Below are positions 5,311 to 59,764 of a DNA stretch of 64,000 bases, one piece after another. Under the pieces are notes generated by a model that worked only from the letters and a program-made list of their open reading frames with translations, did no database searches and had not been told where the DNA came from. Made by a program: the position numbers and the translations under genes. The stretch spans positions 3,882,501 through 3,946,500 of the forward strand of contig NZ_CP020083.1 of the NCBI RefSeq assembly GCF_003431825.1, in the 5' to 3' direction. This DNA is from Blastomonas fulva. Lineage in GTDB: Bacteria > Pseudomonadota > Alphaproteobacteria > Sphingomonadales > Sphingomonadaceae. How positions within the stretch are numbered: the stretch's first letter is position 1; the number at the start of each line of letters is the position of its first letter.

Positions 5311-5641
5311 TATTGCCAGAAAGCTACCCAAGTGCGGCGATGGGATGCAATGCGGCGGCTGGCTGAAAGCTGACATGCGGCTTTAGCCATTTTGTGGCCA
5401 GGACCCGTCATTCAACAACCGGCCCATTTTTTGATCTTCCGGAGTTGGGAATTACTCATCATTTCAGCCGCAGGGGTTGAACGGTGACTTCTGACAGGAG
5501 CTCGCCGTTGGCGATCATGGTCGTGTGACCTCACTAAACGGGCAAGGTTATCTGGAAGCGGCCCGTCTGCGTTGGCATGTGCAAACTTCTTGAGGTGTTG
5601 CCAGCTGAATCACGGCCCTGCTGACGTCTGACGTTTAACAA
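5311..5641. other. Gene-poor spacer with part of a dispersed repeat
   Basis: I see no credible gene here. At 5408-5429 it contains CATTCAACAACCGGCCCATTT, which recurs with few changes at 9450-9471 on the far side of the hscC module. The rest shows no repeat or clear signal. Confidence 0.5.
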
Positions 5642-7375
5642 TTAAATTGCTGGTCGAAACCACTGAAGCAATCTTGCGACGATCTTTACTAGACAAAAGA
5701 GAACGAGGTAAAGCATCGCGGCCAGCGTAAACCTACCAAGCCCATCGCCGGTTTCTTCCCTGAACACCGGCACGGTCCAGTAGAACAGGACAGCTACGAC
5801 ACGCAGGGGCCACTCAATCCAGGCAAAGTAAGCGGGAGTTGCGGCGAGAACCAGGTGCTGGAGGAGAATGGCGAGCGGGACGCACACGAGGAGCATCGGG
5901 GATGGATCGGCCGAGACGCCAATGATCACGACAGTGGCACCCAACATGATGGTCCCGAATGCCAGCGCGTACAACATCACGCGCTTGCGGGGAGGAGCAT
6001 CGTCAATGAATTGGGCCCACGGGTGCCATCCCCGCTCACCGAACCAGCAGCACAGCGCCAGCGGGGCCACAAGCTGGAGCGCCAGACCCCGGTTCACCTC
6101 GAAGAGGATGCATATCGATACAATGCCGGCCCCTATTGGGAACCGGGAGCGGCTCCACCGGGTAGCCGCGTCATCCCATTGAGGCGGCGCACACCGTAGG
6201 TAGATCAATACGGCAAGAGAGGCCGATAGCACGAGCGAGAGGATCAATTGAACGGTCCCCGAAGGGACGGCGGCTAACAGCAGGGGCGAGCCGAACACGG
6301 AGGCGCTTAGCAAGGGCAGATGCGCGTAGATACCATTTGGCCCTTGTTGGTCGTGCAGGCGGCGTGCGATGCGCCGAAGCTCCATTGCGCCGCGGATGAG
6401 AGCATACGACAGCGATATCGAGCCGAGAACGACCAGTGGTATGGCCGCCCCGCCCATGCCCTTCGGCAAAAGGACTAGGGCCGTAAATCCCAGCAAGAAG
6501 GACCCGGCAATCATCAGTTTCCAGAAGTGAAGCGGCAGCCGCCTGGACGCGAGGTAACCCTGCCACCAATCGAAATTGGGCCCGGCCAGGTCTTTCTCTA
6601 TGGTCGGGTGCCAAGTGCGGACAACCGCTAGGAAGTCGGCGACGTCGTTCACCAGTGGCTCTTGGAAAAGGCTTACGCGCGTGCGCCCGGAGCCGCGAAG
6701 CTCTTGAAATGCCCGGTGGTGGGGATGTGAAGGTTTGGCGAACGCCGCCAAGCTCCGGCGATCCTCTTCCCGGTCAAGGACGGCTCGCACGGCATAGCTT
6801 GCCCGCGAGCTTTGCGCCCGATCCCAGCCGAAGTGCTTGATGGAGGGGGAAATCAACGGGTCCGAGGCTGGGATGGCGGCAGCGATCGTGTCTGCCATCC
6901 ACTCGTCCGTTGCCGAAGCGGTATCGACATGCTCCAGTTCCTTGCTGCCAAGGATCTCATGGCCCAGCCGCGCTATTTCGGCGGGATCCCCCTGCAGTTC
7001 GAAAAGCAGCAGATCGAGCTGGGACATGGCCTTTCCAAGCTCACCTTCGCAAATCGGAGGGGGCAAACGCCACTGGTCAGAAGGGCCTTCCCACTGCTCA
7101 TCCACCGCCCATTCTTCCGCATCAAGCTCATCGTCCGCTAGAGGTTCTTCCTCTATCAGAGCTGGCGTGATCGCCTCCGCGGCTTCCTCGTCCCACCAGG
7201 GCGTGTCCACACCCCATTCAAGAGCGTTTTCCAGCGCCTGACGCAGGCGGATGAAGGACGCCGGATCCGCATCGACATCGATGCCCTTCAAGGCGCCGCT
7301 GTAAGCTCGCTTGATCTCGCGGCGATCATCCGTCGGCACGATGCCCAGCACCTGCCAGTCGTCGGCAAGGCTCAC
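5642..7375 (-). CDS. Membrane J-like protein, partner of HscC
   Basis: This 577-residue protein has an N-terminal J-like segment (about 4-50: DDWQVLGI, KRAYSGALKGIDVDADPASF) in which the HPD tripeptide that stimulates Hsp70 ATPase is absent. An acidic linker follows (EEEPLADDELDAEEW). The second half has about eight to ten hydrophobic stretches, so it is probably an inner-membrane protein. The GTG start at 7375 overlaps the hscC stop (GTGA), which argues for translational coupling. E. coli HscC is likewise encoded near the J-proteins DjlB and DjlC. The partner role is inference from this arrangement; the membrane prediction is by eye. Confidence 0.75.
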   Translation of the reverse strand: MSLADDWQVLGIVPTDDRREIKRAYSGALKGIDVDADPASFIRLRQALENALEWGVDTPWWDEEAAEAITPALIEEEPLADDELDAEEWAVDEQWEGPSDQWRLPPPICEGELGKAMSQLDLLLFELQGDPAEIARLGHEILGSKELEHVDTASATDEWMADTIAAAIPASDPLISPSIKHFGWDRAQSSRASYAVRAVLDREEDRRSLAAFAKPSHPHHRAFQELRGSGRTRVSLFQEPLVNDVADFLAVVRTWHPTIEKDLAGPNFDWWQGYLASRRLPLHFWKLMIAGSFLLGFTALVLLPKGMGGAAIPLVVLGSISLSYALIRGAMELRRIARRLHDQQGPNGIYAHLPLLSASVFGSPLLLAAVPSGTVQLILSLVLSASLAVLIYLRCAPPQWDDAATRWSRSRFPIGAGIVSICILFEVNRGLALQLVAPLALCCWFGERGWHPWAQFIDDAPPRKRVMLYALAFGTIMLGATVVIIGVSADPSPMLLVCVPLAILLQHLVLAATPAYFAWIEWPLRVVAVLFYWTVPVFREETGDGLGRFTLAAMLYLVLFCLVKIVARLLQWFRPAI

Positions 7376-46961: not shown

Positions 46962-49103
46962 TTACTCGCCTGCGATCTTCAGCCCGGTGAAGTGCGCGAG
47001 GAAGGCGTAGATGTCAGAGAATTCCTCGATGATCTTGTCGGTGGGCTTGCCCGAGCCATGGCCGGCGCGCGTCTCGATGCGGATCAGATGCGGCTTGTCG
47101 CCAGCCTGCGTCGCCTGCAGGCGCGCGGTGTACTTGAAGCTGTGGCCGGGCACCACGCGGTCGTCGGTGTCGGCGGTCGAGACCATCACCGCAGGATAAT
47201 CGGCTTTGCGGATCGTGTGATAGGGCGAATAGGTCAGAAGCGTCCTGAAGTCGGCCTCCTTGTTCGGATAGCCATAATCATCGACCCAATAGCGCCCGGC
47301 GGTGAAGCGGTCGAAGCGCAGCATGTCCATCACGCCCACCGCCGCATGCGCCGCGCTGAACAGATCGGGCCGCTGGTTGACCACCGCGCCGACCAGCAGC
47401 CCGCCGTTCGAGCGGCCTTCGATGGCCAGCTGGTCCTTGCCGGTTACGCCTTGCTTGATCAGATACTCGCCCGCCGCGATGAAGTCGTCGAACACGTTCT
47501 GCTTGTTGGCGAGCCGTCCGGCATCGTGCCACGCCTTGCCGTATTCGCCGCCGCCGCGCAGGCTCGCCTGGGCATAGACGCCGCCCTGCTCGAGCCACGC
47601 CAGCCGCGTCGGCGAGAAGCCGGGCAGCACCGAGATATTGAAGCCGCCATAGCCATAGAGCAATGTCGGCGCGGGGCCGGTGACGGTCTTCTTGCGGACG
47701 ATGAACATCGGCACCTTGGTACCGTCCTTGCTGGCATAGAAGCGCTGCTCGACGGCATAATCGTCGGGGTTGAACGCCAGCTTGGGCTCGGCCCAGGGCG
47801 AGACCTGGCCCGATGTCAGGTCATAGCGATAGATCGTTGTCGGGCGGTTGAAGCTCGAATAGGCGAAGAAGGTTTCCTTCGAATCCAGATCGCCCTCGAA
47901 GCCGCCGACCGAACCGATCCCCGGCAGCGGCAGCTCGCCCATCGGCTTGCCCGCCAAATCGAACAGCTTCACGACGTTGCGCGCATCCTGCAGATAGTTT
48001 GCGACCAGCTTGCCACCGACCACCGAGGCGCCTGCGATCACCGCCTCGCCTTCGGGCACCACCGTCTCGATGCTGGCTTCATTGCCGTTGCGCGCCATCG
48101 AGACGATGCGCAGCCGCGGCGCATCCTTGTTGGTGACGAAATAGATCCGGTCCCCGGCCATGCCGATCATCTGCCAGTCGTTGACCAGCTCGGGCACGAT
48201 CACGCGCTGCGACGTGGATGCCTTGGTGCCGTCCAGATCGATCATGGTGAGGCGATAGCGCTCATCGGTGCCCGAGGACGAGGTGACCAGCAGGAAGCTG
48301 CCATCGTCGGAGACCTGCGCGCTGTGATTGAGCTGGGGCTCCTGCGGCGTCGCATAGATCAGCGGATCGGCACTCTGCGGCGTCCCGATCGCGTGATAGC
48401 GGATTTCCTGGTTGGTGTTGAGCGACTGGAACTCGCCCTCCTTGTCGGGCTCGGGGAAGCGCGAATAATAGAAGCCCTTGCCCGCCTTGTCCCATTCGAG
48501 CGCGGAGAACTTGACCCATTTGACCTCGTCATCCAGCGGCTTGCCGGTGGCGACATCAAGGATCTTGACCGTGCGCCAGTCGCTGCCGCCATCCTGGATC
48601 GAATAGATCAGCTTGCTGCCGTCCTCGCTGGGCACCCAGGCATCAAGCGCGGTGGCGCCGTCCTTGGCCCAGCCGTTGGGATCGATCAGCACCCGCTCGG
48701 CGCCGTTCGCGCCATCTTTCACGTACAGCACCGCCTGGTTCTGCAGCCCCGCATTGCGCGTGAAGAAATAGCGGTTGCCCGCGACCTCGGGCACGCCGGT
48801 GCGCGCATAATCGTACAAAGCGCGCATGCGGGTGGCGAGCGCGGCGCGGCCGGGCAACGTCTCGAGATAGGCGTCGGTGACCTTGTTCTGCGATTCCACC
48901 CACGCGGCGACCTTGGGATCGACCCGGACATCGTTTTCCAGCCAGCGATAGGGATCGGCCACCTTGACGCCGAACTGTTCCTCGACCGTGTCCACGGTTT
49001 CGGTGGCCGGATACGACAAGGGCGCTTCCTGCGCGATCAGCGGTCCGGAAAGTGTCATGGCTGCGGTCCCCAGCAAAGCGGCAAGAGTGGCGCGAGTGCG
49101 CAT
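46962..49103 (-). CDS. Prolyl oligopeptidase (S9A), exported
   Basis: This 713-residue serine peptidase has a signal peptide (RTRATLAALLGTAAMTL, cleavage near IAQEA), a seven-bladed propeller (about 60-440) and a catalytic domain with GRSNGGLLVG holding the serine at about 555, D in STADTDDRVVPGHS and H in ETRAGHGSGKPT. It cleaves short proline-containing peptides, here probably in the periplasm. ATG 49103 is chosen because it opens the signal peptide. Confidence 0.93.
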   Translation of the reverse strand: MRTRATLAALLGTAAMTLSGPLIAQEAPLSYPATETVDTVEEQFGVKVADPYRWLENDVRVDPKVAAWVESQNKVTDAYLETLPGRAALATRMRALYDYARTGVPEVAGNRYFFTRNAGLQNQAVLYVKDGANGAERVLIDPNGWAKDGATALDAWVPSEDGSKLIYSIQDGGSDWRTVKILDVATGKPLDDEVKWVKFSALEWDKAGKGFYYSRFPEPDKEGEFQSLNTNQEIRYHAIGTPQSADPLIYATPQEPQLNHSAQVSDDGSFLLVTSSSGTDERYRLTMIDLDGTKASTSQRVIVPELVNDWQMIGMAGDRIYFVTNKDAPRLRIVSMARNGNEASIETVVPEGEAVIAGASVVGGKLVANYLQDARNVVKLFDLAGKPMGELPLPGIGSVGGFEGDLDSKETFFAYSSFNRPTTIYRYDLTSGQVSPWAEPKLAFNPDDYAVEQRFYASKDGTKVPMFIVRKKTVTGPAPTLLYGYGGFNISVLPGFSPTRLAWLEQGGVYAQASLRGGGEYGKAWHDAGRLANKQNVFDDFIAAGEYLIKQGVTGKDQLAIEGRSNGGLLVGAVVNQRPDLFSAAHAAVGVMDMLRFDRFTAGRYWVDDYGYPNKEADFRTLLTYSPYHTIRKADYPAVMVSTADTDDRVVPGHSFKYTARLQATQAGDKPHLIRIETRAGHGSGKPTDKIIEEFSDIYAFLAHFTGLKIAGE

Positions 49104-49137
49104 TGGCGATCCCCTATGGTGTTGATTGAACAAACGA

Positions 49138-49173
49138 AAACAGGCCGCGAATGTGGACATTCGCGGCCTGTTT
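49138..49173 (-). terminator. Terminator of the alpha ribosomal operon
   Basis: A perfect 16-bp stem (AAACAGGCCGCGAATG and its complement) with a 4-base loop ends 25 bases beyond the rplQ stop. On the minus strand the stem is followed by TTTTCGTTTG. It isolates rplQ from the peptidase gene. Confidence 0.9.
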
Positions 49174-49198
49174 GGCAATCCGGTATAGGATGAAACGA

Positions 49199-49621
49199 TT
49201 ACGCGCCTTCGTACTCGTCTTCGTCGCTCATGACCGGACCGGAGTCCTGGCCCTTGGCGCTGAAGTCACGATCGACGAGTTCGATGATGCCCATCGGGGC
49301 AGCGTCCGAGGCGCGGAAACCGGCCTTCAGCACGCGGGTGTAGCCACCCTCGCGGTCGGCATAACGCGGTGCCAGCGTATCGAACAATTTGGCGAGCTGG
49401 GTTTCGTCCATCAGGCGAGCCATCGCCAGACGACGGTTCGAAAGACCGCCGCGCTTGGCCAGCGTGATCAGCTTTTCGACATAAGGACGCAGTTCGCGTG
49501 CCTTGGGAAGGGTGGTGGTGATCTGCTCGTGCTTGATCAGCGAGGCTGCCATGTTGCGCAGCATCGCGATACGGTGCGAGCTGGTCCGCTGCAGCTTGCG
49601 CTTGCCAATTCCGTGACGCAT
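49199..49621 (-). CDS. rplQ: 50S ribosomal protein L17
   Basis: The 140-residue protein starts [17 protein letters not shown], the L17 signature, and contains [24 protein letters not shown] segments ([15 protein letters not shown]) and an acidic tail (SDEDEYEGA). It is last in rpsM-rpsK-rpoA-rplQ and is followed by a strong terminator. Confidence 0.97.
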
Positions 49622-49704
49622 TTTCAGTACTCCGTTCGTAAGGGGGCCGTTTGAGGTACCCCGGTCCAGGCGGTGTTAACGGCCACCGCCGATGCCGAAC
49701 TTAT

Positions 49705-49735
49705 GAATCCTCCCCCAGCAAGCCGGGGGAGGATT
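49705..49735. repeat. Short palindromic repeat between rpoA and rplQ
   Basis: AATCCTCCCCC and GGGGGAGGATT form an 11-bp stem around 8 bases. It is a relative of repeat family D and lies inside a highly expressed operon, so its transcript would fold. Confidence 0.6.
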
Positions 49736-49741
49736 GAACTA

Positions 49742-50794
49742 TTAACCCAGCAGTTCCTGCTCGAGCTTCTTGGCCATTTCTTCGATGTTCTCGGGCGGCC
49801 ATCCGGGGATGTCCATGCCGAGGCGAAGACCCATGCTCGAGAGCACTTCCTTGATTTCGTTCAAGGACTTGCGGCCGAAGTTCGGGGTGCGCAGCATCTC
49901 GGCTTCGGTCTTCTGGACCAGGTCGCCGATATAGATGATGTTGTCGTTCTTGAGGCAGTTTGCGCTGCGGACCGACAGTTCCAGCTCGTCCACCTTCTTG
50001 AGGAGGTAACGGTTGATCTGGTTGGCATCGCCTTCTTCGGGTGCAGCCTGACTGACCGAGCCCGAACTCGCCTGGGTCAGGCTGTCTTCGAAGTGGACGA
50101 ACAGCTGCAGCTGATCCTGAAGGATGCGCGCAGCATAGGCCAAAGCGTCTTCCGGAGCGACGGTGCCGTCGGTTTCCATGGTCAGCGACAGGCGGTCATA
50201 GTCCAGCTCCTGGCCGACGCGGGTGTTTTCCACCTTGTACGACACCTGACGGATCGGCGAGAACAGCGAATCCACCGGGATCAGGCCGATCGGCGCATCG
50301 ACCGGACGGTTGGCAACGGCGGGGACATAGCCCTTGCCGGTGTCGCAGGTCAGTTCGATGTTCAGCGTCGCACCGTCATCAAGATGGCAGATCACCAGAT
50401 CCTTGTTCATCACCTCGATATCGCCAGACACGGCGATGTCGCCGGCCTTCACCTGCGCAGGGCCGGTGGCGGAAAGCTGAAGCCGCTTGGGGCCTTCGCC
50501 TTCCATCTTCAGCGCGATCTGCTTGATGTTGAGGACGATATCGGTCACGTCTTCGCGCACGCCGGCGAGCGAGGAAAACTCGTGCAGCGCGTTTTCGATC
50601 TTGATCGAGGTGATGGCCGCGCCCTGGAGCGACGACAGCAGCACGCGACGCAGCGCGTTGCCGAGCGTCAGGCCAAAGCCCCGCTCCAGCGGCTCTGCGA
50701 CAAAGGTAGCCTTGCGCTTGGGATCACCGCCGGTCTTGATTTCAAGACCGTTCGGCTTCTTCAGTTCCTGCCAGTTCTTGATGTTGACAGTCAT
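49742..50794 (-). CDS. rpoA: RNA polymerase alpha subunit
   Basis: The 350-residue alpha subunit has the N-terminal assembly domain ([20 protein letters not shown] in part: [17 protein letters not shown]) and the C-terminal DNA- and activator-binding domain ([19 protein letters not shown]). The linker around [11 protein letters not shown] is as expected for alphaproteobacteria. It is third in the alpha operon. Confidence 0.97.
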
Positions 50795-50903
50795 GGACTT
50801 CCCCTGAGTGTTGGGCGAGGGCGACGCTGGTAACGCGCTTGGGAACCCCGGCCGGAAATTGCAAAGGATGGCGCGTCCGCCACCCCCATAGACAGCCTGG
50901 GTG

Positions 50904-51293
50904 TCAGACGCGGCGCCGCTTGGACGGACGAACCCCGTTATGGGGGATCGGCGTCACGTCGCGGATAGATGTGATGGTGAAGCCCACGGCCTGCAAGGCC
51001 CGAAGCGCAGATTCACGACCCGAACCCGGGCCCTTGACTTCGACTTCCAGCGTGCGGACGCCATGTTCGGCGGCCTTCTTGCCCGCGTCTTCAGCACAGA
51101 CCTGCGCAGCGTACGGGGTCGACTTGCGGCTGCCCTTGAAGCCCATCATGCCGGCAGACGACCAGCTGATCGTGTTGCCCTGAGCATCGGTGATGGTGAT
51201 CATGGTGTTGTTGAAGCTGGCGTTGACGTGAGCAACACCAGACGAGATATTCTTGCGCTCGCGCTTTTTGAGCCTTTGCGGTTCGCGTGCCAT
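50904..51293 (-). CDS. rpsK: 30S ribosomal protein S11
   Basis: The 129-residue protein contains [38 protein letters not shown] S11 segments ([16 protein letters not shown]) and ends RPSKRRRV. It lies between rpsM and rpoA in the usual order. Confidence 0.97.
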
Positions 51294-51384
51294 AGTTCGT
51301 TATCCTGGAATAAAGGCCTGATATCAGGCCATAAAGCTGGGGAAAGAAAAACAAGGGCGGGACGCATGAAGCGCCCCGGCGTCC

Positions 51385-51753
51385 TTATTTCTTCTTGCCG
51401 GCGATCGGCTTGGCCTTGCCCTTGCGGGTGCGCGCATTGGTGTGCGTGCGCTGGCCGCGGACCGGAAGGCCCTTGCGATGACGCAGGCCGCGATAGCAGG
51501 CCAGATCCATCAGACGCTTGATGTTCATCGCGGTCTGGCGACGAAGGTCACCTTCCACGGTGTGATCGGCATCGATGGTTTCGCGGATCTGCAGCACTTC
51601 GGCGTCGCTCAGGTCCTGAACGCGACGGGCGTGATCGATACCCAGCTTGTCGGCGATTTCCAGCGCCTTGGTGCGCCCGATTCCATGAATGTAGGTCAGC
51701 GCAATGATAACGCGCTTGTTGGTGGGGATGTTCACCCCGGCGATACGTGCCAC
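51385..51753 (-). CDS. rpsM: 30S ribosomal protein S13
   Basis: The 122-residue protein starts [14 protein letters not shown] and has [18 protein letters not shown] and a basic tail ending AGKKK. The start codon is GTG, with AGGAGAAG about seven bases upstream. It is first in the operon here; neither adk nor secY precedes it, and instead a divergent gene and a promoter lie upstream. Confidence 0.96.
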
Positions 51754-51892
51754 TTAATACTTCTCCTGCTCCACAGGGTGCGTCAGCCGCACCCCATCTC
51801 AACGCTTCACGACCATAAAGCGCAAAACACAGGCCACACGCATATTAAGATGCGCTGCCTGTTTTTAAGCCGCTTAATGAAAATGAGTGCCG

Positions 51893-51921
51893 CGCATAAG
51901 CGGAGTCGCCCGGGCTGTCAA
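51893..51921 (-). promoter_or_regulatory. Promoter of the alpha ribosomal operon
   Basis: On the minus strand TTGACA (51921-51916) and TATGCG (51898-51893) are separated by exactly 17 bases. This lies about 140 bases before the rpsM start and is the best promoter match in the divergent intergenic region. Confidence 0.65.
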
Positions 51922-52051
51922 GCGCGGGACAAGACAAAAGCATGGGTCTGCGCGACGAATGGTATTGCGCCTGCCGACAGCATCGCGTCATACTCTCACC
52001 CGGCCCGGCGCGCAAGCCAGACGCAGGACAACGGGCCAGCCGGGGGGCCTG

Positions 52052-53149
52052 ATGACCGACAGCCTGAACACCGCCGATGGCGCCCTGCCCGCAGCCCCCA
52101 ACTCGGGCGCAAGCGCGCAGCCTTTCACCATTGCCGGCACGGTGATCGATCCCGGTGCCAGCGCGACCATCGCCATCCCCGTCAGCAACACCGCGACCGG
52201 GCTGCCTGCCAGCCTGTATGTCCGCGTGCTCCACGGTGCGCGGCCCGGCCCGTGCATCTTCGTCTCCGCCGCGATCCATGGCGACGAGATCATCGGCACC
52301 GCGGTGATCCAGCGGCTGCTGGCCAAGCTCGATGCCGCCAACATGGCGGGCACGGTGCTGTTCCTGCCGGTGGTCAACATCTTCGGCTTCCAGGCGCACA
52401 GCCGCTATCTGCCCGACCGGCGCGATCTCAACCGCTCCTTTCCCGGCAGCGCCAAGGGATCGCTCGCAGCCCAGCTCGCCGCAAAGTTCCTCAAGGAGGT
52501 GATCTGCCACTGTACGCTTGGCATCGACATCCACTCGGCCGCGGTACACCGCTACAACCTGCCGCAGATCCGCATCGCGCCCAATAACGAGAATTTGCGC
52601 GAGCTCGCGATGCTGTTCGGCGCGCATGCGGTGATCGAGAGTCCGTTACGCCCCGGCAGCTTGCGCGACATCGCGCGCGGCGAAGGCGTCGACATGCTGC
52701 TGATGGAGGCGGGCGAGGCTTTGCGCTTCGACGAATTGTCGGTGCGCTGCGGGGTCAACGGCGTGCTCAACGTGATGGCGCATCTCAAGATGATCCAGCC
52801 GCACCCGGAAGCCACGCAAGTCACCATCCCCGCGCGCTCCCGCCGCGCCATCTGGGTCCGCGCCCCGCGCGGGGGCCTGTGCATGCTCCAGCAGAAATCG
52901 GGCGACGCGGTGAAGAAGGGCGAAGTCATCGGCCGCGTCGCGGGCATCTTCGGCGACGACGCCCAGGAATTCCGCGCCCCCATCGACGGCATCATCATCG
53001 GCCACGCAGTGCTGCCCGTGGTCAACCAGGGCGACGCCTTGGTGCACATCGCCGAGGTGATGCGCTTCGGCGATGTCGAGGAGCGGGTGGATCAGATCAC
53101 CGAGGCGCTGTTGAACGACCGGTTGCTGGATGAGGATGAGTTGATTTGA
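52052..53149 (+). CDS. Succinylglutamate desuccinylase/aspartoacylase-family protein
   Basis: This 365-residue M14-like zinc enzyme has the ligands H and E in AAIHGDEIIG at about 77 and the third histidine in GIDIHSAAVHR at about 160. NIFGFQAHSRYLPDRRDLNR, in parts, matches the family's substrate loop. The C-terminal third is a beta-rich domain with IWVRAPRGG and APIDGIIIG. It probably hydrolyses an N-acyl amino acid or a related amide; the substrate is unknown. The GGGGGG run before ATG 52052 may serve as ribosome-binding site. It is divergent from rpsM. Confidence 0.87.
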   Translation: MTDSLNTADGALPAAPNSGASAQPFTIAGTVIDPGASATIAIPVSNTATGLPASLYVRVLHGARPGPCIFVSAAIHGDEIIGTAVIQRLLAKLDAANMAGTVLFLPVVNIFGFQAHSRYLPDRRDLNRSFPGSAKGSLAAQLAAKFLKEVICHCTLGIDIHSAAVHRYNLPQIRIAPNNENLRELAMLFGAHAVIESPLRPGSLRDIARGEGVDMLLMEAGEALRFDELSVRCGVNGVLNVMAHLKMIQPHPEATQVTIPARSRRAIWVRAPRGGLCMLQQKSGDAVKKGEVIGRVAGIFGDDAQEFRAPIDGIIIGHAVLPVVNQGDALVHIAEVMRFGDVEERVDQITEALLNDRLLDEDELI

Positions 53150-53155
53150 GGGGGG

Positions 53156-54523
53156 CTAGCCTGCTCGATCAAGCGCCTCCCGCTCCACCTGGTCCCGCAT
53201 CGCTTCTGTGCTGACCGAGGCAGGTTCACGTTTACCTTCCGAAATTTTTGGCGGTTTCGGTTGCCAGGCAGAAACTTTGGCTCCTACTAGATCATAAAAC
53301 GCGCTTGCCGAGTTCAGCAATTCGGTAACGATAATCTTCCTTTGAGCAAATTTTGCCCCGAGATCGCGAACCAGCAAAATCTCAAAGCTATGCACCACCA
53401 TCCCAGGCCGATCCAAAATTGCAATGTCGGGATCAGCCAGCAGAGCTTTCAAAGGATACTGAGTTGTGGGCGAACGGCCCGGCCAGAACAGACGGACATG
53501 AAGGTCGTTATTGTCTGTGTCAGACAGTTGCCGTGTCAGCCAGGACAGGCGAGCCTTTGTAGACTTCCGGTCTGCGGGAGCCTTCAGACGCATGTGAAAG
53601 CTAAGAGCACGCTTGCCAAAATCCGCACAAATTTGAACTGGGGCTGCTGCGTCTGGGATCAGCACCTCGCTTTGAACACAATTCCCAGAGACAAGCTCGG
53701 CGAGCGCTGTTTTTTGACGCTGCGTAGGGTCGATAGCATCAGATTTGCTCATAACTAATTTGACATGATTGCCGATCTGCCGGCTCAAAACACCTGTGAG
53801 ACGATCAAGTGCCTGATGCCATGACCCAACCACGTCGTGACAGATCGGATTTTTAGCGCTAGCCGTACCTCCCGCAGCAATGTTTGCACATAGATCAGAC
53901 CATGCTGCCGGCATCTGGTCGAACTCTTTGACTCCTGAACTGGGGTGAAGCAAAAATCTCTGCAGCTCAGACAGGAGAATGAGTTGCTCACGATCATCTA
54001 CTTCACCAAGCTCACGAAGTAGCTGCGCCTGAGTGATCACATATCCCCATGACCAATGAAATAAGGAAACTTTGCGTGTTAGGAGTGAGCTGACACTTAG
54101 TGGGTGGTGAGTTGGCAAAGCTGTAAACTGATTTGAAACCGTGATAACTGCATCAATTGCGTTAGATTTAGCTATACCCAAATATGCTTCAATTTGATTG
54201 TTGGTTAGCTCTGCGGTGCCAACTTTAGCTTCTACGAGAGCAGTCCAGGTCGATTTGCCGGTGCTAACCTTGATCAGTCCGTCAGGACGGTGCTTTGAAT
54301 CTGAAACACCTTTCTTGAAAACAACCTCAGTGAAGGTATCGATGCGGGCCCGCGAACCAAGCTTGAGTCCCACGCTTCCTAGCATCGAACGTCCAAACTC
54401 ATTAACGTTTTCAAGACAAGCCAAAAAAATTGAAAGGGTTCGGCCTTCTTTTGACGTATCCGCAAGAACCGGAAAAAGCCGTGCTGCTTCCCCGGATTGC
54501 AAGAAATCTGGTAGCTGCCCCAT
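53156..54523 (-). CDS. PD-(D/E)XK-like protein of an accessory locus
   Basis: The 455-residue protein has a nuclease-like core near residues 75-110: HRPDGLIKV, then WTALVEAKVGT and QIEAYL, which reads as the D and ExK of a PD-(D/E)XK site followed by the usual helix glutamine. The remaining 330 residues match no family that I recognise; the segment DNNDLHVRLFWPG and the basic C-terminus stand out. GGGAG lies six bases upstream of ATG 54523. Base composition is clearly more AT-rich than the flanking genes. It is divergent from the DUF2188/TIR-like pair and probably shares a control region with it. Nuclease activity is inference. Confidence 0.65.
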   Translation of the reverse strand: MGQLPDFLQSGEAARLFPVLADTSKEGRTLSIFLACLENVNEFGRSMLGSVGLKLGSRARIDTFTEVVFKKGVSDSKHRPDGLIKVSTGKSTWTALVEAKVGTAELTNNQIEAYLGIAKSNAIDAVITVSNQFTALPTHHPLSVSSLLTRKVSLFHWSWGYVITQAQLLRELGEVDDREQLILLSELQRFLLHPSSGVKEFDQMPAAWSDLCANIAAGGTASAKNPICHDVVGSWHQALDRLTGVLSRQIGNHVKLVMSKSDAIDPTQRQKTALAELVSGNCVQSEVLIPDAAAPVQICADFGKRALSFHMRLKAPADRKSTKARLSWLTRQLSDTDNNDLHVRLFWPGRSPTTQYPLKALLADPDIAILDRPGMVVHSFEILLVRDLGAKFAQRKIIVTELLNSASAFYDLVGAKVSAWQPKPPKISEGKREPASVSTEAMRDQVEREALDRAG

Positions 54524-54755
54524 ATTCAACTCCCTACGTGTAAGAATACAGAAGTGCTCTAACAGGGCAAGCGTGAGTCTGACAGATAGTTTTCCTGGCT
54601 TTCCCTAATTGTCATCATTTTCTTCATGCATGTCATTGCAAAATGCGCGCCTCCGAAAGCATATCCCAATAGATCCAGTTTGGACGAATCCCCTACACGT
54701 GAGCCTTCCCAACAATGAATCGCAACACTATGTTGATGGAACAGTGGAGTCTGCC

Positions 54756-54980
54756 ATGTCAAAGCAAGGTCAGCATGTGGTGCCCTCTGAGCGGGGGTGG
54801 AGTGTCAGGAAGGCCGGGTCGACCCGCGCCAGCAGCAATCATGCGACGCAGCAGGAAGCAATTGCTGCTGCAACAACGCTTGCGCGCAACCAGCGCACGG
54901 AGTTGTATATCCACGGGCGCGACGGGCGCATTCGGGAGCGCAATTCGTACGGCAAAGATCCTCATCCACCCAAGAGATGA
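54756..54980 (+). CDS. DUF2188 protein
   Basis: This 74-residue protein matches DUF2188: QHVVPSERGWSVRKAGSTRA, then SSNHATQQEAIAAA and TELYIHGRDGRIRERNSYG. The family is small, soluble and of unknown function. GGAG lies eight bases before ATG 54756. Its stop overlaps the next ATG (ATGA), so it is translationally coupled to the TIR-like gene. Confidence 0.82.
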   Translation: MSKQGQHVVPSERGWSVRKAGSTRASSNHATQQEAIAAATTLARNQRTELYIHGRDGRIRERNSYGKDPHPPKR

Positions 54981-55609
54981 CCGCCGCCCCGCCGTTTGAA
55001 AGATCGGTGTTCGTCAACTGCCCGTTCGACGATGATTTTGCACCGTTGTTGCAGGCCATCGCCTTCTGCATCACCGATCTGGATTTCTATCCCCGGATCG
55101 CGCCTGAAAATGCCAACAATGCCGCCAACCGGCTGGACCGGATCATCGAGCTGGTCCGGGGCTCGCGCTATGGTATCCACGATCTTAGCCGCTGCAAATC
55201 CACCGCCGCCGATCAATATGCCCGGCTTAACATGCCGTTCGAGCTCGGGCTGGACCATGGTTGCGCACGCTTCGGCCCTGCCCCGCTGACGGATAAGTCG
55301 ATTCTGATCCTCGAGCACGATCGCTACGATTACCAGAAGGGTCTGTCCGACATATCAGGCTGGGACATCCAGGCCCATGGCGGCCAGTTTGTCGCGATTA
55401 TCAGGATAGTCCGCAATTGGCTTGTCCACCATGCCGGGGCCGTCAATATCGGTGCATCCAAGATACAAGGCGATTATGCCGCCTTCCAGGAATGGCACTG
55501 GGAACGTGAACTGGCGCAAGGAGCATCAGAGGACGATATTCGCGACTATCCGACCATTCAGTTGATCTCGGCCATGCGCCGTTGGGTCGATGAAGGCAGA
55601 CCCTTATAG
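54977..55609 (+). CDS. TIR-like putative nucleotide-binding protein
   Basis: The 210-residue protein opens SVFVNCPFDDDFAPLLQAI, a first strand and helix as in TIR and related Rossmann-like domains. GSRYGIHDLSRC looks like the third strand. RLNMPFELGLDHG resembles the helix with the catalytic glutamate of NADase TIR-like proteins (compare NVxFELG in CBASS TIRs). SILILEHDRYDYQ and GWDIQAHGG follow. I recognise it as a widespread unnamed family; the TIR relation and any NADase activity are inference. It is coupled to the DUF2188 gene and opposite the PD-(D/E)XK-like gene. Confidence 0.6.
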   Translation: MTAAPPFERSVFVNCPFDDDFAPLLQAIAFCITDLDFYPRIAPENANNAANRLDRIIELVRGSRYGIHDLSRCKSTAADQYARLNMPFELGLDHGCARFGPAPLTDKSILILEHDRYDYQKGLSDISGWDIQAHGGQFVAIIRIVRNWLVHHAGAVNIGASKIQGDYAAFQEWHWERELAQGASEDDIRDYPTIQLISAMRRWVDEGRPL

Positions 55610-56061
55610 AGCAAGATTGACATTACAAACCAATTAGGTTATACATCACCCGCCTCCGTACCAAATCTGCCCGGTACGGACTCAAGGCACGTGCTTTCCC
55701 GGGATTATCCGGGGGCGGCGGGTTGGGGCTGGTGGGTGGGCTTTTCGCGAGAGCCGGACACCCATTGGACAAGCCGAACCCAGGCGGCAGACGGTCAGCT
55801 GTGCGGCAGCTTTGGATTTCCTTCCTCGCCGCACACCGGTCTCGGCCGGGAGCCACCGAAAGCGCAAGATGGAAGGACCATCAGCCCTTGGCGGGATGAG
55901 GCTTAGCACCAGATCACCCGCCAGTCCGCCGCACGCATCCGGTTTCGACCGGACCGTCCCCGGCCCGCCGCCCTGCGCGCGCTTGTCTGTGTTTTCAGGA
56001 ACAGGAAGGGTGCGCGCGCAAATCCAACAGGGGTTTGGCCTCTGTCGTACTGGCCTCTTGC

Positions 56062-56150
56062 GTCATTCCCGCGAAGGCGGGAATCCCGCTATTGCGCCGA
56101 CGCTCGAGCAGAAGCGGGACCCCCGCCTTCGCGGGGGTGACGGGGATGTT
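56062..56150. repeat. Palindromic repeat family B, second copy
   Basis: CGTCATTCCCGCGAAGGCGG opens, CCCGCT and AGCGGG pair inside, and CCCCGCCTTCGCGGGGGTGA closes. The layout is the same as at 29395-29482, with arms more complete here. Confidence 0.75.
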
Positions 56151-56166
56151 GGGCTGGCGTGGGTGC

Positions 56167-56198
56167 GGGGCCTTCGACAGGCTCAGGCTGAGCGGATG
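56167..56198. repeat. Repeat family C copy
   Basis: GGCCTTCGACAGGCTCAGGC followed by TGAGCGGATG matches 21448-21482 with one base changed. Confidence 0.65.
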
Positions 56199-56239
56199 TC
56201 GGGTGCGGCTGGAGCGGGAGGCAGCGTGCGACGCCCCCC

Positions 56240-57403
56240 TCACCTGCCGAACTCGGGCCGTCCCATCGCGCGGCCGTAGAGCGAGGCGTAGCGTTCGATC
56301 ATCTTGCGCTCGTCGAACTCGGCCTCGGCCTTCGCCCGGTTGGCGGCGCCCAGCGAGGCGCGCAGCGCGGGGTCGCTGGCGAGGCGCCGCAGATTGTCGA
56401 TCAGCCCCGCTTCGCTGCCGGGCTCGCCCAGCAGGCTCGCGTTGTCGGGTGCGACCATGTGCGCGACATCGCCCACCATCGGCGCTGCCACCGGCAGCCC
56501 GGCGGCCATTGCCTCCATCACCGAGATCGGCTGCTGCTCGCTGTCCGAGGACAGAGCGAAGATATCGAACAGCCCGATATAGCGCGCGGGGTTCTTGAGG
56601 AAGCCCGGCATCAGCAGCCGGTCGGAGAGGCCGACGCGCGCGGCCTCGGCCTCGATCGCTGTGCGCTCGGGCCCCTCGCCCACGATCACCAGCCGCACCG
56701 GCATGTCGAGCGCGGCGACCGCGCGCACCAGCCGCGGCAGGTTCTTGACCGCGCGAAGGCCTGCAAGCGTGCCGATGACGATCTCGCCATCGCGCCGCTG
56801 GAAGCCGGGCAGCGCGCCGCGCTGCGGGCGCTTGGCATAGGCTGCGATATCGATGCCGTTGGCGATCCGCCGCACCCGGCTGTCGGGCTGCTTCCATACG
56901 TCGTACGCGATCCGCTCGAGCGTGTGCGAGGGCACCACCAAGGCCTCGGTGCGCGCAAGGCCGACGATGCGGAACCAGTTGCGCTTGCGCTTGAGCCGCA
57001 CCGCCTCGTCCTCGTTGAAGCCATCCTCGTGATGGATCACAGGTGGCAGCGGCGTGGTGCCTGCAAAGATGGTGCGCGCCATCACGCCATCCATCGCGCC
57101 CCAGTTGTAGCTGCAGATGAGGTCGAACTGTTTGAAATACTCGACGAACACCCGGTAGCGCGCGATGCTGGGCTTGCCCGCCAGCGAGGGCGCATCGGTC
57201 GGGAAATCGGCGCGGATGCCCGGCGCGATCGCGGCGCGCGCGCCCAGCGCCCCGGGCACCGCGGTCAGGATGGTGTGGTGCGCCGCGCCGCCGAAATAAT
57301 TCATCAGCCGAACCGCGCGCGCCTCCTTGCCGCCCAGATCGAACGTGCTGTGCAGGTGCAGGATACGCGCCGGGTTGAACGTGGGCTTGATGGGAGGCTT
57401 CAT
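56240..57403 (-). CDS. Glycosyltransferase family 4 protein
   Basis: The 387-residue GT-B enzyme has the N-terminal Rossmann domain (HLHSTFDLGGKEARAVRL) and the C-terminal donor-binding domain with IVGEGPERTAIEAEA, FALSSDSEQQPISVMEAMAA (E-x7-E motif region) and GLPVAAPMVGDV. It transfers a sugar from a nucleotide donor, probably onto a cell-surface glycan or lipid. It lies 20 bases downstream of an alpha/beta hydrolase gene and probably shares its transcript. There are no other glycan genes nearby. Confidence 0.9.
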   Translation of the reverse strand: MKPPIKPTFNPARILHLHSTFDLGGKEARAVRLMNYFGGAAHHTILTAVPGALGARAAIAPGIRADFPTDAPSLAGKPSIARYRVFVEYFKQFDLICSYNWGAMDGVMARTIFAGTTPLPPVIHHEDGFNEDEAVRLKRKRNWFRIVGLARTEALVVPSHTLERIAYDVWKQPDSRVRRIANGIDIAAYAKRPQRGALPGFQRRDGEIVIGTLAGLRAVKNLPRLVRAVAALDMPVRLVIVGEGPERTAIEAEAARVGLSDRLLMPGFLKNPARYIGLFDIFALSSDSEQQPISVMEAMAAGLPVAAPMVGDVAHMVAPDNASLLGEPGSEAGLIDNLRRLASDPALRASLGAANRAKAEAEFDERKMIERYASLYGRAMGRPEFGR

Positions 57404-57423
57404 AAGCGCGGGGCTATAACCGC

Positions 57424-58326
57424 TCAGGCCTGGGTCGCAAGCGCCATGGCATCAACCTCGCCGAGCAATGTGGCGATCGCGTCAGCCACCTCGGGCTCCT
57501 CGAGCGAGGGCGCATGGCCCTTGTTCGCGACCGTGAGCAGACGGCCCTGCGGCAGCACGCCCAGCATCCGCTGCGCGGTATCCACGCTGAACAGATCGGA
57601 CATCGCGCCGCGCACGATCAGCACCGGCACCGGGGCGAGCCCCGCCAGCGTCGGCCACAGATCGACCCCCGCCTCGCCGCCGGGCACCGCAAAGGGCTCG
57701 GCGATCTTCATGTCGTAATCATAGACGATGCGCCCGCCCGGCCCGACCTTCATCGCCTTCTTGGCCATGTCCAGCCAGTCGCTGACGCTGTTGCCCGGAA
57801 ACACCGCGCCCTGCACTTCGGACAGCGCACGCGCCGCGTGCATCCATGTGGGGAACGAACGTCCCTGGCCGACATAATCGCGGATCCGCGCCAGCCCTGC
57901 CGGCTCGATCTGCGGGCCGACATCGTTGAGCAGCGCGCCGACCACGCGCCCGGGCCGGGTCGAGGCGAGCAGCATGGTGATGAGGCCACCCAGCGAGGTG
58001 CCGATCGAAACGAAGCGCTCGATCTTCTGCTCCTGCAGCAGCGCCTCCATGTCCTGCACATAGGTCAGCGGCACATAGCTCATCGGGTCCTTAGCATAAG
58101 CGCTGTCGCCGCGGCCGCGCAGATCGACGCAGATCACCCGCCAGTCGCCAGCCAGCTTTGCTGCGACCTGCTCGAAATCGCGCGCGTTGCGGGTGAGCCC
58201 GGGGATGCAGATCACCGGCGGGCGGTGCGCGTTTTCCGGTCGTGCGGGATAGTCGCGAAAATGCAGCCGCAAGCCGTCGTTCGACCACCAGAAACCGTCG
58301 CTATAGGGTATATCGGGCTTGGTCAT
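57424..58326 (-). CDS. Alpha/beta hydrolase
   Basis: The 300-residue hydrolase has the nucleophile elbow SIGTSLGGL at about 104, HG-type segment ICIPGLTRNARDF at about 40, an acid in VLIVRGAMSDLFS and a catalytic histidine in NKGHAPSLEEPE near the C-terminus. Substrate unknown; esterase or lactonase is possible. Its ATG overlaps an ATG on the other strand (CATG at 58324-58327), and for this reason I start the divergent selO gene further in. It is upstream of the glycosyltransferase gene. Confidence 0.88.
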   Translation of the reverse strand: MTKPDIPYSDGFWWSNDGLRLHFRDYPARPENAHRPPVICIPGLTRNARDFEQVAAKLAGDWRVICVDLRGRGDSAYAKDPMSYVPLTYVQDMEALLQEQKIERFVSIGTSLGGLITMLLASTRPGRVVGALLNDVGPQIEPAGLARIRDYVGQGRSFPTWMHAARALSEVQGAVFPGNSVSDWLDMAKKAMKVGPGGRIVYDYDMKIAEPFAVPGGEAGVDLWPTLAGLAPVPVLIVRGAMSDLFSVDTAQRMLGVLPQGRLLTVANKGHAPSLEEPEVADAIATLLGEVDAMALATQA

Positions 58327-58363
58327 GGTTGCGCGGGCTCCGTTTGAACCCCACTATCGCTGG

Positions 58364-59764
58364 ATGACATCAGAACCGCAAGCCGCTTCCACCCGCGCCG
58401 ACCCGGCGATCCTGTCCATCGCCGATGCCATCGCCCATCCGGTCAAGGCGGCGGATTTCCCGCAGACGCTGCTGCGCTTCCGCAACGACCGGCATGCCGC
58501 GACGGTGGGGCTGGACGGGCTCGACGATGCGGCCTGGGCGCGGCACTTCGGGCGGTTCGAACCCCTGCCCGGCAACCTGCCGCAGCCGCTGGCGCTCGCC
58601 TATCACGGCCACCAGTTCCGCAATTATAACCCGCAGATCGGCGACGGACGCGGGTTCCTGTTCGCGCAGGTCCGCGATGATGCCGGGCGGTTGCTCGACC
58701 TGGGGACCAAGGGATCGGGGCAGACCCCGTTCAGCCGCGATGGCGACGGGCGGCTGACGCTCAAGGGGGCGGTACGCGAGATCCTGGCGACCGAGATGCT
58801 CGAGGCTTTGGGGGTACACACCTCCAAGACCTTCTCGGTGATCGAGACCGGCGAGGAACTGTGGCGCGGCGACGAGCCCTCGCCCACCCGCTCGGCGGTG
58901 CTGGTGCGGTTGAGCCACAGCCATATCCGCTTCGGCACCTTCCAGCGGATCGCGTACGAGGACGATGCCGACAAGATGCGGCGCGTCGTGCGCTATGCGC
59001 TCGATACGCTCTACGATGGCCGCACCGGCGACAATGACGCGGCGCTGCTGCTGACCCTTGCAGTCGAGCGGATGGCCGATCTGGCGGCGAGCTACATGGT
59101 CGCAGGCTTCGTCCACGGCGTGCTCAACACCGACAACATGAACATTACCGGCGAAAGCTTCGATTATGGCCCATGGCGGTTCGCGCCGACCTGGCAGCCG
59201 GGGTTCACCGCGGCCTATTTCGACCATTCGGGGCTGTATGCCTTTGCCCGCCAGCCCGAGGCGATCCACTGGAACCTCGGCCAGCTCGCGGTTGCGCTGC
59301 GGCTGATCAGCGAGGCCCCGCCGCTGATCGCCGCGCTAGAACGCTTCGGGCCGCTCTACCAGCAGGCGCTGGTGCGGCGCGTTTGCTGGCGGCTGGGGGT
59401 CGCAAGCCAGGGGGTCGAGGCCGACCGCCATCTGGTCGCCGCCGCCGAGGCAGTGATGATGCAGGGCGGCGTCAGCATCGACGCCTTCTTCTTCGCGTGG
59501 ATGGGCGATGCGATGCCCGAATGCCCGGCGGAACTGCTCGGCACCGAGGGCGAGGCACTGTGGGCGGCATTCGGTGCGGTCAAAGCGGGTTATGCGCCGG
59601 TGCGGGCTCGGACCCACGCCTATTGGCAGGGTGCGGCGCCGCAATCGATGCTCATCGACGAGGTCGAGAGCATCTGGGCCGCCATCGCCGAGCGCGACGA
59701 CTGGGGGCCGCTGTTTGCCAAGGTCGATGCGGTCAGGGCGATGGGGGATGCGCTGAAGGGCTGA
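58364..59764 (+). CDS. selO: Protein adenylyltransferase SelO (YdiU family)
   Basis: The 466-residue pseudokinase-fold enzyme moves AMP onto Ser/Thr/Tyr of target proteins. Family blocks are AYHGHQFRNYNPQIGDGRGF, in parts, then DLGTKGSGQTPFSR with the ATP-contacting lysine, LKGAVREILATEMLEALGV, EPSPTRSAVLVRLSHSHIR-type EDEPSPTRSAVLVR, and HGVLNTDNMNITG with the catalytic and metal residues. No selenocysteine codon is seen at the C-terminus, as in most bacterial members. I prefer ATG 58364 to 58325 because the latter would overlap the divergent start; neither has a good Shine-Dalgarno. Confidence 0.92.
   Translation: MTSEPQAASTRADPAILSIADAIAHPVKAADFPQTLLRFRNDRHAATVGLDGLDDAAWARHFGRFEPLPGNLPQPLALAYHGHQFRNYNPQIGDGRGFLFAQVRDDAGRLLDLGTKGSGQTPFSRDGDGRLTLKGAVREILATEMLEALGVHTSKTFSVIETGEELWRGDEPSPTRSAVLVRLSHSHIRFGTFQRIAYEDDADKMRRVVRYALDTLYDGRTGDNDAALLLTLAVERMADLAASYMVAGFVHGVLNTDNMNITGESFDYGPWRFAPTWQPGFTAAYFDHSGLYAFARQPEAIHWNLGQLAVALRLISEAPPLIAALERFGPLYQQALVRRVCWRLGVASQGVEADRHLVAAAEAVMMQGGVSIDAFFFAWMGDAMPECPAELLGTEGEALWAAFGAVKAGYAPVRARTHAYWQGAAPQSMLIDEVESIWAAIAERDDWGPLFAKVDAVRAMGDALKG

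Follow-up and report, generated by a model that had tools for sequence, protein, structure and literature searches.

A DUF2188 gene and a TIR-like gene as a fixed, possibly defensive pair in a variable slot of the Blastomonas fulva chromosome

Background

Three genes of AT-richer composition lie together between high-GC genes in a 64,000-nucleotide stretch of Blastomonas fulva contig NZ_CP020083.1 (the window), and the question they raise is whether they form one antiphage module, as a first-pass annotation had suggested, or whether only some of them belong together, and to what end. We find support for a fixed unit of two genes, one encoding a tiny DUF2188 protein and the other a 210-amino-acid TIR-like protein. 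We propose that this pair is a toxin-antitoxin-like abortive-infection switch, in which DUF2188 would hold an enzyme inactive until infection, a reading that we hold as quite possible though short of probable. The open reading frames (ORFs), strands, lengths and gene overlap are as first annotated, and the gap between the divergent starts, put at about 230 bp, is 232 bp. In window coordinates, the features are:

54756-54980, plus strand: DUF2188 gene, 74 amino acids, assigned from Pfam, PADLOC and an AlphaFold 2 (AF2) model
54977-54980, plus strand: ATGA overlap of the DUF2188 stop and the start of the 210-amino-acid gene
54977-55609, plus strand: ORF of 210 amino acids, predicted TIR/DNPH1-type fold and predicted N-glycosidase effector (AF2 model, fold matches, conservation)
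54524-54755: divergent intergenic region, 232 bp between starts, where the promoter of the pair is expected
53156-54523, minus strand: ORF of 455 amino acids with a PD-(D/E)xK signature (P80-D81, E98-x-K100, Q110), an accessory gene judged to lie outside the pair
53154 to about 55616: block of cargo DNA whose chromosomal slot varies between genomes, delimited by sibling comparison and GC content

Results and discussion

The pair as a unit

The 210-amino-acid protein has 551 confirmed relatives in a contig database, and to assess the association of the two genes we used the nearest 80, each with up to 10 kb on either side (stretches of 3-20 kb). A DUF2188 gene lies upstream of the TIR-like gene in 80 of 80 loci, far beyond chance, which bears out the earlier claim of a fixed pair; all 80 TIR-like genes are distinct at the DNA level, and the record titles span several phyla and include many metagenome-assembled genomes, where misbinning is possible. 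The identities of the DUF2188 proteins co-vary with those of their TIR-like partners (r 0.549; 0 of 1000 permutations as high), as expected from shared inheritance. ATG is the start of most bacterial genes; read from its first in-frame start codon, the TIR-like gene opens with TTG at 46, GTG at 18 and ATG at 14 of 78 loci, and two further loci lack such a codon. Measured from the DUF2188 stop, this start most often lies at +3 (20 loci), +2 (17) or -4 (8), and a 4-mer resembling a Shine-Dalgarno sequence stands ahead of it in 48 of the 78, a count made without a control. From this arrangement we infer coupled translation with a lower output of the second, TIR-like gene.

The order is shared more widely than the identity of the first gene. 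Samples drawn by taxonomy overlap the 80 loci, and in the class sample (385 genomes) the TIR-like profile has 9 matches in 7 genomes; the matches without DUF2188 in the taxonomic samples fall in a sister branch. Of its 14 distinct loci examined (L089, L090, L184-L188, L254, L255 and L260-L264), 11 carry another small ORF, of 55-128 amino acids, whose end adjoins the TIR-like start or slightly overlaps it; L186 has none and L188 and L254 are not clear-cut. A GRSAxTGxF-like motif, recognized by eye, is common to five of these small ORFs (L090, L187, L260, L261 and L262). Viral contigs hold seven TIR-like loci, all with a small ORF ahead, and in four of them it matches DUF2188. Two of the viral loci (L293 and L294, which share 98% identity) encode a DUF2188-like domain with an additional C-terminal segment, which by eye resembles the small proteins encoded in the sister branch. 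Hence there is a shared plan, with a small protein first and a TIR-like protein second.

Such a plan resembles the gene layout of type II toxin-antitoxin systems, in that a small gene comes first, an effector gene overlaps or adjoins it, and the small partner is exchangeable; the difference is that DUF2188 also heads operons other than toxin-antitoxin pairs. The same order, adjacency and partner exchange would suit a toxin-antitoxin pair that merely stabilises mobile or island DNA and has no direct antiphage role, and the presence of TIR-like relatives in 17 plasmid records, the variable slot and the lack of defence-island enrichment (both described below) point the same way. We nevertheless consider this improbable, as RadA/CvpA/PurF-type and gyrase-B-type flank families recur around the pair in related hosts among the 80 loci, which suggests long residence in the chromosome. 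Some TIR-like copies are fragmentary or interrupted: the family-sample match in genome G033 (L006/L091/L265) is fragmentary and contains a stop, the gene at L082 is broken by about 800 bp, and plasmid matches H2-H5 belong to the same category.

Predicted properties of the two proteins

The 74-amino-acid protein is a clear match to Pfam PF09954 (2.5e-26) and matches both PADLOC PDC-S16 models (3.1e-36 over residues 1-73, and 5.1e-36), and DUF2188 is already flagged by PADLOC as defence candidate PDC-S16. This match covers DUF2188 alone, whereas for its TIR-like partner PADLOC gives none up to an E-value of 1; the first-pass view that no described system has this composition is to be amended to that extent. 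No paper on DUF2188 in defence appeared in the result listings of full-text searches of PubMed Central. The AF2 model is a small beta-beta-beta-alpha-beta-beta domain (predicted local distance difference test, pLDDT, 86.7; predicted template modelling score, pTM, 0.71) with no confident relative in the PDB, and the protein gives no profile match to a small DUF1508/YegP set. Its C-terminus in the window is PPKR, and the consensus of its relatives is PPKG.

The 210-amino-acid protein is predicted to be a Rossmannoid of the TIR/DrHyd (TDS) type, a five-strand alpha/beta sandwich, in keeping with its first description as TIR-like. Its model (pLDDT 82.1, pTM 0.84) has five strands alternating with helices, and the highest structural Z scores are to DNPH1, MilB and TIR domains. 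Residues H68, D69, N85, E89, S124 and D125 are identical in 81 of 81 TIR-like sequences. E89 sits in NMPFELG, which the first reading of the sequence had compared to a catalytic helix and which is indeed present and conserved. DNPH1, MilB and nucleoside deoxyribosyltransferase (NDT) enzymes have a catalytic Glu, and E89, invariant throughout, may be its counterpart here, acting with polar pocket residues.

DNPH1 and MilB are the best structural matches, at 9-14% identity; unlike these DrHyd enzymes, the protein pairs with DUF2188. The structural matches would suit a role in nucleotide house-cleaning, in which the TIR-like protein would hydrolyse damaged nucleotides as DNPH1 does and the small protein would be its cofactor. 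We regard that as quite improbable: a rare, patchy distribution, start codons that are mostly not ATG and a small partner that can be exchanged are ill-suited to housekeeping. The sequence profile is, moreover, nearer to the CAP12-type TIR than to NDT, both similarities being weak: hhalign of the TIR-like profile against five PF10137 members gives E 0.002 (probability 13.6, 106 columns), and against PF05014 (NDT) members E 0.19.

PF10137, the CAP12/Pycsar-effector TIR family, has a NADase role and is the nearest Pfam family by sequence, with aligned R-x-N-xxx-ELG and SD..G motifs. The window protein itself has no match to it up to E 1, and 3 of 33 relatives match it weakly (best 0.0038); the pair differs further in having DUF2188, or a different small ORF, beside the TIR-like gene and in that no cyclase occurs among the three proteins of the block. 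The same 33 relatives yield a single weak PADLOC match, to PDC-S35 (0.0012), and none to ThsB. The 210-amino-acid protein has no ThsB model match and the block has no further gene that could be ThsA, as Thoeris would have; there is no Argonaute or APAZ partner, as in the SPARTA TIR (TIR-APAZ/short Ago); and none of the three proteins matches a cyclase model of CBASS (cyclic-oligonucleotide-based antiphage signalling systems), although DUF2188 relatives elsewhere do sit in CBASS operons. Separately, a second contig of the same genome encodes a CAP12-type TIR protein (L268, G000:C2:91016-91366; PF10137, 2.2e-39).

DUF2188 as the first gene of other operons

To place DUF2188 beyond the pair, we considered 41 strong loci (at least 59 bits). 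The class sample supplied 21 of these, counting the window, and a phylum sample the rest, 20 of its 24 further strong matches. The next gene is TIR-like in six of them, and encodes a ThsB-type TIR in one (L203). Three loci lie in CBASS operons (L195, L199 and L217), and in three the genes that follow are ubiquitin-like or ThiF/E1 (L189 and L192, and L223 by eye). In six more (L193, L198, L222, L226, L230 and L231, by eye) an unnamed protein of about 390 amino acids comes next, after a gap of about 320 bp at L230, with XRE and ImmA-like genes adjoining; the remaining 22 have other or no clear partners. These data support DUF2188 as a recurrent first gene of several known immune operons. The XRE and ImmA-like genes of the arrangement with the 390-residue protein diverge from DUF2188, the two such proteins scanned (L193 and L222) have no PADLOC match, and the arrangement may be a separate, undescribed immune operon. 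Neighbours of DUF2188 relatives at L228 and L233 look, by eye, like Ku or LigD of non-homologous end joining.

Regulatory genes recur at some of these loci. At L217 the DUF2188 gene (near 5556-5780) is followed by a CapV-type phospholipase, a cyclase and E1-E2, with a divergent capP-type gene (1.4e-69); at L206, a further relative, it precedes a Tle1-like protein and an M78 peptidase gene (PF06114) adjoins; and at L199 XRE/ImmA-like genes stand beside it, by eye. In this respect they resemble the CapH+CapP, CapW and CapK+CapS operons, from which the window differs in that its block has no such regulator gene. PMC13373217 describes CapH+CapP and CapW as DNA-damage-responsive controllers of adjacent operons, and reports that in 57 of 443 cases CapK/CapS is followed by a YegP homologue.

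DUF2188 could accordingly be a general sensor or licensing factor that recognises an infection or DNA-damage signal and switches on whichever effector follows, be it TIR-like, CBASS, TIR or ubiquitin-like. Its place ahead of unrelated effectors, several of them beside XRE and M78/ImmA-type genes such as those of L217 and L206, suits such a role, as do the response of CapH+CapP to DNA damage reported in the same paper and the joining of a DUF2188-like domain to a further segment in L293 and L294. We think this possible but on the unlikely side, given that the window block has no XRE/M78-type regulator gene, that the small ORFs of most sister-branch loci differ from DUF2188, and that comparison of folds gave DUF2188 no relative whose ligand is known.

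The cargo block and the nuclease-like gene

The GC content of the block is 0.527 (0.502 for the 455-amino-acid gene and 0.585 for the pair), against 0.673 to its left (52000-53150) and 0.677 to its right (55617-58500); at 49000-51900 it is 0.602, lower than in the immediate flanks. Homology to two sibling genomes, G001 and G004, ends at 53153-53165 and restarts at 55617-55628, and between the same flanks each sibling holds a different single gene (454 and 433 amino acids). The AT-richer block, as first described, is therefore inserted cargo, in a slot that varies among at least three genomes. The comparison rests on these two siblings; in six others the left flank is not in the stretches compared. 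The sibling-slot genes sit at L209 761-2699 and L210 5798-7516 (433 and 454 amino acids). By the ORF list, the block holds no gene of size besides the three, and no alphaproteobacterial LexA-type box was found in the 232-bp intergenic region.

At least 97% of 121 aligned sequences retain P80-D81, E98-A99-K100 and Q110 of the 455-amino-acid protein, and the PD...ExK motif is invariant in 15 diverse members of the family; by its conserved motif the protein therefore fits a PD-(D/E)xK nuclease, and the D...ExK site first noticed by inspection holds across the family. The protein itself has no Pfam or PADLOC match and an NCBIfam match at chance level (0.19), and among the 15 members VRR_NUC is the only Pfam match, weakly and in two (best 0.036). 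A single three-gene defence system of nuclease, DUF2188 and TIR-like protein would agree with the divergent layout and the common low-GC block in this genome. We disfavour it as very improbable: the 455-amino-acid gene is beside the pair in 0 of the 80 loci, within their 3-20 kb, and of its 7 matches in 6 genomes (window included; 60 relatives scanned) the six others have, within the short stretches covered, neither a DUF2188 nor a TIR-like match. The nuclease-like gene, which the first-pass annotation had grouped with the pair, is likely an independent passenger in the same slot.

A proposed switch

To account for the pair, we propose that DUF2188, produced ahead of the TIR-like enzyme and in excess over it, would bind the enzyme directly and keep it inactive. 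Phage infection or DNA damage would release or activate the enzyme, and the freed enzyme might then split the N-glycosidic bond of NAD+, the most likely substrate, or of a related nucleotide, which would be destroyed. The proposal builds on gene order across phyla, adjacency, non-ATG starts, co-variation, conserved residues, exchange of the small partner and the immune operons that DUF2188 heads; inhibition, substrate, trigger and a part in phage defence are what the model would add to these.

Several results weigh against the switch. DUF2188 is upstream of only 4 of 9 TIR-like matches in the class sample and 4 of 11 in the family sample (249 genomes, window counted), and some small ORFs of the sister branch may be chance frames. 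Foldseek E-values for the 210-amino-acid model are weak (best 2.6e-3), with receiver domains in the same range (5.0e-3), and of five models only two exceed a pLDDT of 70. The position of DUF2188 ahead of unrelated effectors is unexpected for a dedicated antitoxin and better suits a general sensor. DUF2188 relatives occur in 18 phage records of Streptococcus, Lactobacillus and Latilactobacillus, with one satellite phage among the matches, and in the five phage records inspected (L144-L148) the gene has no same-strand neighbour and lies opposite both adjacent genes. Lastly, an association with defence islands, raised in the first reading, was not borne out: 154 flank proteins were chosen around the pair, six being dropped by length limits, and the commonest families among the 148 analysed (first 25 of 233 listed) are housekeeping or metabolic. 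PADLOC families matched number 40 in these 148 proteins and 48 in 126 proteins about 6 kb away at the same loci, so that no enrichment around the pair was found by this measure.

Conclusions

A broader formulation would make DUF2188 a shared safety-and-trigger subunit of bacterial immunity. Encoded at the head of the operon, it would gate effectors as unrelated as TIR-like proteins, CBASS, Thoeris-type TIR and ubiquitin-like conjugation, with the TIR-like pair as the minimal two-gene form. We consider this rather doubtful; were it true, temperate phages that carry DUF2188 alone would use it to keep effectors shut. If the proposed switch is correct, DUF2188, so far a PADLOC candidate alone, would gain a family of partner effectors for which no separate defence model exists, and this would suggest a set of immune operons that open with the same tiny gene, raising the question of whether DUF2188 restrains or triggers the effector behind it.
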